Source: Anaerolineae bacterium (GTDB taxonomy: Bacteria > Chloroflexota > Anaerolineae > 4572-78 > J111). From it: a DNA stretch of 15,674 nt. The notes under the pieces are model-generated. The model saw only the letters and a program-made list of their open reading frames with translations, had not been told where the DNA came from and made no database searches. The stretch spans positions 1-15,674 of the forward strand of contig JAGRBY010000104.1 of the NCBI GenBank assembly GCA_020433835.1, given 5' to 3'. Below, piece after piece: positions 1,264 to 3,422 of this stretch (the stretch's first letter is position 1; every line of letters begins with the position of its first letter). A program made the translations under genes and the position numbers.

Positions 1264-3422
1264 GATAACCTCCGGCTGAAGCGGTTGCGCATTAATACCG
1301 CCGATGCATTTAGGGTGAGTAACAATATAAGTAAAACGATGATAGCCGCTGCCGCAATGTTACGGAACTCATCTTGCGGACGGGCTGTCCATTGATAAAT
1401 TTGAATGGGCAAGACTGTAAACTTGGCAAAAGGACCGGTGGGGTCAACCGTGATAAAGGTAGATGCACCGATGACCACCAACGGCGCGGTTTCACCGATG
1501 GCCCGCGACATCGCGAGGATGTTACCGGTTAAAATACCGGGGATAGCGTTGGGCAGCACATGGCTCCAAATGGTTTGCCACCGGGTAGCGCCCAGCCCCA
1601 TACCGGCCTGACGCAGCGAATTGGGTACGGCCCGGATGGCCTCTTGCGCGTTGATGATAATCAACGGCAAAATCAAGAGCGCCAGGGTTAAACTGGCCGA
1701 AATAATCGTTCGACCGTTGGCCGTAGTGGGATCGGAAACTCCAAAGAGTGTACCGCTGGTAATCGGTTCCAACGCCCGCACAAAAATGGCCAGCCCCAAT
1801 ATCCCGTAGATGATAGAAGGGACACCGGCCAGGTTGTTGATGTTGGTTTGAATGATGCCGTTAATGCGCCGCAGGGTGGGGTTGGCGACCATAACCGCGT
1901 ATTCTTCCAGGTAAACCGCGGCTCCTACACCAATGGGTAAGGCCACAGCAATGGTGATAAAGATAACCCACAACGTGCCAAACAAAGCTGTGCGAATACC
2001 GGCCAGTTCCGGCGTACTCGACTGCGGTGTTAGCAAGAATGAGGGCGTTAACCAACTGCGCCACTGAAGCTCACCTTGGGGAATTGTGGCGGCGATTTCT
2101 TCAATTCCGGCTCGATTTAACAGCGACTCCGACAGCGTCCAAGAGCGAACCACGCGCTGTTCAACCACCCGCTCAAGCACCAAATCCACCAACTCGGGCT
2201 GGGTACGTTCGGCCAGCGGCGCTTCGACATCGTAGCGGCGCAGCAAGCCGGCTGATAAGTTAGCTTCTAAGATTTCAAGCAATTCCGCTTTGGTCAACTC
2301 TTTTAACTCTCGCGAAAAGACCGTTTCGGCAAAGAAGTCGAGCGTGCCGCTATCCGCACCGGGAATAAACCGTTCGATGGGTTCATTCGGCCAGGCGGGG
2401 TTGACCTCCGACCAAGTTTTGGCGTCGGTGAAGATCTGGCGCAGTTCATCTTGGGTTGCACTCTCAAGGAAGGTATTTTTCGAACTGACCACCACGGCTA
2501 AGGCATCGGTTCCTACTCGAAATTCAATGGGGGAACGCTTGCTCTTTTCACAGGTTTCAACTTCAGCCCGATTAATCGGACGGCTGGCGTTGACCATATC
2601 AGACGCGCGATCTTCACAAAAGATTCTAAAACCGGCGGTTGTACCGGTTTGCTGCAGGTCGATGCCGCCCTGAAAACCGGCGCGGCGGAACTGAACGGCC
2701 ATTTGACGGGTTAAGGGGTATACGGTTGAACTGCCGGCCACGATAAGATCGTGATCGCTTACGTCAGCCGGGTTACTGGCGTAAGATTGATAGGTGTCGG
2801 CCTGTTCGCCCACCGCTTCAGACCAAGCGGTGGTTGAATTGCCCAGTGTTTCATCAGAGATCGGGAAATAGCCGACTTCTTCAATTGTACTATTGACGTT
2901 ATTGAGATAGTAGTCGACAAACGTGCCAACGGCTGCGTTTTCCTGCATAATTTCCGGTGACGAGTAAATGAAGAGCGGGCGCGAGAGCGGATAATCGCCA
3001 CTTTCGGCGGTCTCGCGCGACGGCGTCTGACCATCAACGGAAACCAGCTTTAGTTTGTCGCTGTTCTCATTGTAATAAGCATATCCAAAAAAGCCGATGG
3101 CATTGGGGTTATCGGCAATGCCGTCGACCAGTTCGTTGTCATCTTCGCTCGAAACGGTGCTTGGGGCTGATAGCATCTGGCTTTCTTCCATCGCCAACAC
3201 CAAACTATTGGGGTCAACGTTGTTTTGAAGCGCCGCATAGCCGAAAGCACCATTGATAATGTTATACAGTAGGGCCAACAAGGCCAAAATGGCGATAATT
3301 GTGGCCGCTTGAAAAGAGATACGCCAGGCTAAACCACCCCGTTTTCGACTTTCGATGAACTTTTGGAGATCATCGCCCTCGGGATAGTGTGATTGATTAG
3401 AAGCTTGAGAATCTTGGCTCAT
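1260..3422 (-). CDS. pstA: PstA permease with circularly permuted PstS-like domain inserted in loop 1
   Basis: This 720-residue protein is more than twice the usual PstA length. A cytoplasmic N-terminus and TM1 (about 37-57) lead into an external loop of about 420 residues, then TM2 (478-503), TM3 (531-551), TM4 (571-590), the EAA-type coupling loop (592-623, NSLRQAGMGLGATRWQTIW), TM5 (627-650) and TM6 (691-710). Within the loop, residues 77-195 match the C-terminal half of the free PstS in this window (EDDN, AIGFFGYAYYNEN, YPL-RPLFIY, YFP). Residues 225-369 match its N-terminal half (AGSSTVYPL, GTTAGFR, VNASR, FRVGTDALAVVV, FIPGADSGT). The halves are therefore swapped and joined by a linker at about 196-224. 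The likely phosphate-contacting Ser/Thr/Asp/Arg motifs are kept. Residues 370-475 resemble an ordinary extended PstA loop. The start has GGGAGGAA upstream and overlaps the pstC stop (ATGA). Confidence 0.93.
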   Translation of the reverse strand: MSQDSQASNQSHYPEGDDLQKFIESRKRGGLAWRISFQAATIIAILALLALLYNIINGAFGYAALQNNVDPNSLVLAMEESQMLSAPSTVSSEDDNELVDGIADNPNAIGFFGYAYYNENSDKLKLVSVDGQTPSRETAESGDYPLSRPLFIYSSPEIMQENAAVGTFVDYYLNNVNSTIEEVGYFPISDETLGNSTTAWSEAVGEQADTYQSYASNPADVSDHDLIVAGSSTVYPLTRQMAVQFRRAGFQGGIDLQQTGTTAGFRIFCEDRASDMVNASRPINRAEVETCEKSKRSPIEFRVGTDALAVVVSSKNTFLESATQDELRQIFTDAKTWSEVNPAWPNEPIERFIPGADSGTLDFFAETVFSRELKELTKAELLEILEANLSAGLLRRYDVEAPLAERTQPELVDLVLERVVEQRVVRSWTLSESLLNRAGIEEIAATIPQGELQWRSWLTPSFLLTPQSSTPELAGIRTALFGTLWVIFITIAVALPIGVGAAVYLEEYAVMVANPTLRRINGIIQTNINNLAGVPSIIYGILGLAIFVRALEPITSGTLFGVSDPTTANGRTIISASLTLALLILPLIIINAQEAIRAVPNSLRQAGMGLGATRWQTIWSHVLPNAIPGILTGNILAMSRAIGETAPLVVIGASTFITVDPTGPFAKFTVLPIQIYQWTARPQDEFRNIAAAAIIVLLILLLTLNASAVLMRNRFSRRLS

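Follow-up and report, generated by a model that had tools for sequence, protein, structure and literature searches.

The receptor domain of the importer OpuA is terminal in its chain. According to two reports (PMC8025302, PMC11065425), the receptor of GlnPQ and OpuA is covalently joined to the transmembrane subunit, and the GlnP receptors, which are the receptors of the system, are attached through linkers to one side of the transmembrane domain. In a 15,674-nucleotide stretch of an Anaerolineae bacterium (Chloroflexota; GenBank assembly GCA_020433835.1, contig JAGRBY010000104.1), hereafter the window, the phosphate permease gene pstA likewise joins a receptor domain to a transmembrane subunit in one open frame; unlike those of GlnPQ and OpuA, this PstS-type domain is permuted, is anchored at both ends in the loop between the first and second transmembrane helices (TM1 and TM2) and not at a chain end, and stands beside a free receptor that has been kept. 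Natural circular permutation of bilobed binding proteins has been described for Treponema MglB-2 and between glycine betaine- and molybdate-binding proteins (PMC4990184, PMC2395249); these are other families and, in the accessible text of the two papers, are not described as lying inside a permease. The same permuted order as in the insert is found in the solved PstS2 of Streptococcus pneumoniae (SP_2084, PDB 4h1x), which is a separate chain outside any permease, with its last residue at the position of insert residue ~341; the insert is cut some 30 residues further on, and the two permutations are probably independent. Tandem PstS proteins, with the halves N-C-N-C in a single chain, occur in Chloroflexota and contain the same run of C-half, linker and N-half, although they are free proteins with two copies and no permease.

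Permuted binding proteins and tethered receptors are each known already, and no case of a permease loop that contains a permuted receptor came up in our incomplete literature search: with most subscription papers outside its reach, it returned no title or abstract start reporting a PstS domain in PstA, and no paper naming 4H1X. The earlier note on this DNA had called a permuted in-loop receptor a different architecture; this holds for its place inside the TM1-TM2 loop and not at a chain end, and does not hold for the permuted order, which 4h1x shares. The parts of pstA and the free PstS gene with which it was compared are the following.

1260..3422, minus strand: pstA with the inserted receptor domain, an open frame of 720 residues (TIGR00974 226.9 bits, PF12849 102.4 bits)
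3255..3326, minus strand: TM1 of PstA, about residues 33-56 with limits set by eye (model helix 17-59; aligned with insert-less PstA)
2811..3194, minus strand: first part of the insert, the PstS C-terminal half, residues 77-204 (BLASTP to free PstS)
2751..2810, minus strand: linker between the native C and N ends, residues 205-224 (make-up as in the tandem PstS junction)
2313..2750, minus strand: second part of the insert, the PstS N-terminal half, residues 225-370 (BLASTP to free PstS; PF12849 at 225-371)
2013..2312, minus strand: helical loop segment, residues 371-470, also present in insert-less Chloroflexota-type PstA
1263..2012, minus strand: permease core, residues 471-720 (TIGR00974; contains R640)
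4714..5901, minus strand: free PstS lipoprotein gene (TIGR02136 237.4 bits; LAAC in the sequence)

When residues 1-475 of PstA were used as a BLASTP query against the free PstS, two main pieces were obtained in swapped order, PstA 225-386 matching PstS 119-280 (52% identity, expectation value (E) 3e-56) and PstA 75-204 matching PstS 262-391 (52% identity, E 7e-40). The alignment scores of the two pieces were 436 and 341, as compared with 85 and 56 for the best of 300 shuffles. When two copies of the mature free PstS were joined, insert residues 71-372 aligned with them in one unbroken run (score 762), against a score of 435 with a single copy and 62 for the best of 200 shuffles, and the optimal circular cut fell at free-PstS residues 264-267 (EAVF). 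Chance similarity between insert and PstS was rejected on the shuffle scores and the circular alignment. Searches of Pfam and NCBIfam matched PBP_like_2 and PstS each in two stretches of PstA, in addition to the PstA permease; PF12849 reached 102.4 bits in two stretches, above its gathering cut-off of 27, which makes the insert a PstS-type binding domain, and TIGR02136 reached 206.4 bits in two stretches, 0.2 below its subfamily cut-off of 206.6. As the halves stand in swapped and not in canonical order, the insert is a permuted PstS-type domain and not a canonical PstS. Residues 458-716 scored 226.9 bits with TIGR00974, above the equivalog cut-off of 193.45, and thereby belong to PstA.

Two structure models were made. 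In the predicted model the halves close into one bilobed PstS-like domain, and the model of the insert matches the solved permuted PstS 4h1x with its swapped halves in one fold. One closed, bilobed and permuted PstS domain in the first external loop of PstA is thus supported by sequence, by the two models and by the trees described below. The earlier note had placed the domain at PstA residues 77-369 (positions 3194-2316), with swapped halves, a cut at EAVF, an uninterrupted frame and a complete permease part. These coordinates are right, the BLASTP pieces and circular alignment bear out the order and the cut, the pstA frame is open across the insert, and the permease part exceeds its equivalog cut-off; the length had been set slightly short, since the insert runs from about 71 to 372. 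Its linker of about 30 residues agrees with the 31 counted in the window, and the range across relatives is 17-34.

To fix the insertion point, use was made of an alignment with 12 PstA proteins that share the loop and carry no insert (L005-L011, L013, L015, L019, L030 and L035). In these, TM1 is followed by a 'VDPxSL'-like stretch, a few residues, and then 'LEELSKEEL', which opens a helical segment of ~98 residues. Because so few residues link TM1 to the helical segment in the insert-less relatives, the joint in the window could be set between 'VDPNSL' and 'LKELTKAEL'. The helical segment is absent from the Bacillus-type PstA of L054; it was also seen after TM1 in PstA of some records named Spirochaetes and Acidimicrobiia. 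We do not assign residues 371-470 to DUF3333, for which weak matches under the cut-off were obtained in just two of eight PstA scanned (L168, E 0.015; L010, E 0.75). Two other PstA frames with additional loop sequence were observed. That of L042 (7578-10703, plus strand) has a different TM1-TM2 loop of several hundred residues with no Pfam match in the loop, from which this loop may be a general insertion site, and the insert-less PstA of L168 (1501-3198, minus strand) carries an extra segment of ~110 residues in a later loop.

The same architecture, which the earlier note had proposed to look for in other Chloroflexota, is present in 46 loci (30 + 15 + 1, the window included); the strict thresholds make all genome counts lower bounds. 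Of 7993 candidates scored in a protein search, 963 reached E 1e-3 or better. The 120 matches listed of these 963 are 656-760 residues long, save one 445-residue piece of the window itself, and the source organisms named among them are Anaerolineae, Anaerolineaceae, Caldilineaceae or Chloroflexota. In a phylum sample, one genome of 400 matched over TM1, C-half, linker and the start of the N-half (E 1e-20). That genome belongs to an order in which 25 of 56 genomes matched at E 1e-44; when the 31 without a match were searched again, five more were added (G004, G415, G421, G441 and G443), giving 30/56. Two of the 30 are cut by contig ends inside PstA (G418, G415) and one is split by a frameshift (G450). 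The remaining 26 comprise nine with an insert-less PstA, 16 with no match at E 1e-60, and one (G429) in which only the C-terminal part of PstA is present at the start of a contig. Across the class 30 of 396 genomes matched at E 1e-44; G722, whose match range (55-223 of a 648-residue frame) points to a probable tandem PstS, was dropped, and 14 of the 29 left come from the order above. Nothing was found in favour of an assembly artefact or a recent non-functional fusion; the architecture recurs in the 46 loci and the 120 proteins listed, and the inserts form one clade under purifying selection, so that this explanation has almost no probability left. Misassembly at the insert is excluded by the independent genomes, and a recent chimera, which the earlier note had also discounted, by the single clade and the selection on it.

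For the PstS trees the insert halves were rearranged into canonical order. In the first tree 41 inserts lay on one side of a branch with a support of 100 (Shimodaira-Hasegawa-like approximate likelihood ratio test, SH-aLRT); in the larger tree 78 inserts were split from 80 free or tandem PstS with a support of 99, and separate trees of the N-half and the C-half gave the same grouping, each with 99. The simplest reading is a single origin of the inserted domain, with both halves travelling together. At the insert junction a C-tail (VGYFPxS...A...W..A) is followed by a mature N-lead (LPxVDPxxVxGxI), which with much variation resembles the junction of tandem PstS. Because of this make-up the simplest origin would be the capture of a C1-N2 stretch: from a tandem PstS of the kind found in the same lineages, the PstA loop may have taken up a stretch that starts midway through copy 1 and ends midway through copy 2. 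Against a tandem origin stands the first tree, where the rows closest to the inserts are single PstS (support 82). The tandem proteins themselves (24 in the larger tree) need 11 changes on the PstS tree. Two-copy chains were seen in L002, L010 (= L093), L014, L082-L085, L087, L089, L095-L098, L102, L104, L135-L137, L142, L152, L173, L174, L183 and L188; the copies are near-identical in most of those compared (272/272 residues in L104) and less so in L002, L096 and L173, and the near-identity suggests recent duplication or gene conversion.

In the report on the PstS structure 9JWY (PMC12421899), phosphate is bonded by Ser32, Ser33, Thr34, Thr61, Ser83, Gly174 and Thr175, and Pro169 takes the place of an Arg of other branches. 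These residues were mapped to the insert through alignments, with a numbering offset of 22 by our own count, at the following positions.

2724..2732, minus strand: S231, S232 and T233 (Ser32, Ser33 and Thr34 of 9JWY)
2640..2642, minus strand: T261 (Thr61)
2583..2585, minus strand: S280 (Ser83)
2343..2348, minus strand: G359 and T360 (Gly174 and Thr175)

By alignment, the insert of the window has the counterparts of all seven phosphate-bonding residues, as expected of a PstS, and P354 corresponds to Pro169, the Pro-for-Arg exchange typical of that branch. The full set is kept in 77/78 inserts (S and T counted alike). Of 77 columns that are at least 95% constant in the 80 free or tandem PstS, the six that belong to the pocket are all kept at 90% or more in the inserts. 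Two positions are set apart from free PstS: 262 is T or S in 55/78 inserts and G in free PstS, and 361 is L or M in 77/78 inserts and F or Y in free PstS. The sequence data favour a ligand-binding domain with properties of its own, and feeding of the channel, sensing and docking would all be compatible with them.

We rate as most likely, at roughly 55%, that the insert is a resident phosphate receptor directly serving the translocator. Both ends of the domain are tied to PstA, so that it would remain at the mouth of the translocator, where it could pick up phosphate, either dissolved or handed over by the mobile lipoprotein PstS, and pass it to the PstC/PstA pathway, raising the local receptor concentration as is thought for the tethered domains of GlnPQ and OpuA. 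From the topology of such binding proteins we presume that both ends meet PstA close together and on the same lobe. Since the connections at both ends are short, the domain would be expected to remain at the mouth, without the swinging of the GlnPQ domains on their linkers. The earlier note had thought of a receptor loaded by the free PstS, or of a sensor, and both roles are putative; what was tested of them here is the retention of the phosphate-bonding residues. We consider it possible, though distinctly doubtful, that the Pst system is a two-receptor importer, in which the doubly anchored permuted domain, acquired by capture from a tandem PstS, would offer a second, immobile phosphate site at the mouth and serve as a relay or gauge between the mobile PstS and the channel; if true, this would be a transport logic unlike that of the terminally tethered importers.

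Several observations weigh against a receptor that directly serves transport. The insert is dispensable, as judged from its pattern on the tree of the PstA permease part, where 12 changes are needed and five are forced by well-supported branches (perhaps slightly too many, as the frameshift-split L027/L127 copy was scored insert-less though its halves are present), and from L005, which has an empty site despite 76% identity in the matched part of PstA; we read the pattern as one gain followed by repeated loss or transfer. One insert of the 78, that of L195, keeps the domain and has lost all seven pocket residues (GAAAGAA). Of the 71 non-pocket columns constant in free PstS, 35 are kept and 36 fall below 90% in the inserts, which may mean that the docking mode of free PstS is not shared by the insert. 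The insert also evolves faster than the permease, with ratios of nonsynonymous to synonymous rates of 0.166 and 0.052 (Nei-Gojobori; one pair, window and L182), and is under purifying selection. Much of the permease part of the full-length model is of low confidence, and the model gives no basis for judging where the domain sits with respect to the membrane. The insert-bearing pstA of L195 lies at 6159-8282 (plus strand).

The gene before pstC could be read in 40/46 loci, the unreadable ones being G003, G415, G450, G454, G692 and G750, and it encodes PstS in 40/40, single or tandem and in some cases cut by the contig. In G450 no PstS piece was found in the 347 bases before the pstC frame, a stretch too short to tell. 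The insert therefore accompanies the free receptor and does not replace it. This constant presence, the short anchoring connections and the retention of a pocket-less domain in L195 would all suit a structural cap that secures or positions the free PstS over PstC/PstA and retains its pocket from ancestry, much as the large periplasmic loop of MalF does for MalE; such a cap is improbable in our judgement, the seven residues being kept almost throughout while other positions drift. A second, more distant PstS gene lies divergently beside the insert-bearing operon in L001, L135, L136, L141, L142, L143 and L149, with pstC/pstA-like genes in all except L149, where the locus is cut.

The insert shows how a permease loop can come to house a permuted receptor. 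Its likely source (tandem PstS) is extant in related genomes, as are the unoccupied site (insert-less PstA) and a case in which the pocket was naturally lost (L195). Matched comparisons are possible with the pocket-less lineage and with the numerous relatives that have no insert; the system is a natural experiment on whether mobility of the binding protein is required for feeding a type I importer, and on the way in which Pst reads external phosphate.

The further genes of the phosphate system in the window are the following.

3419..4447, minus strand: pstC (TIGR02138 258.2 bits)
472..1263, minus strand: pstB (TIGR00972 393.8 bits)
8084..8794, plus strand: phoU (TIGR02135 199.9 bits)

R640 of PstA corresponds to R220 of Escherichia coli PstA, a transport residue (aligned with residue 220 of 9k3s_A by our own count), and is invariant across 36 relatives. 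The LAAC of the free PstS we take to be lipobox-like. Two similar PhoB/MtrA-like response regulators lie on either side of phoU (7127-7828 and 8809-9501, both minus strand), and a PAS/GAF kinase at 9636-12071, whose top NCBIfam match is PnpS at a score under its cut-off, adjoins the regulators. With phoU, two such regulators and a kinase adjoining the operon, the domain could bind phosphate and act mainly in signalling its external presence, by way of PstA, to PhoU and a PhoR-like kinase and not feed transport. The Pst transporter participates in phosphate signalling, according to one source (PMC5775613), and the pocket is kept while many other columns drift; ordinary Pst systems, however, signal without such a domain, and we hold the role of sensor to be unlikely. 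An Rfam search of the window gave no match. A frame at 13435-14202 (minus strand), which reaches no equivalog cut-off, encodes a pentapeptide-repeat protein.
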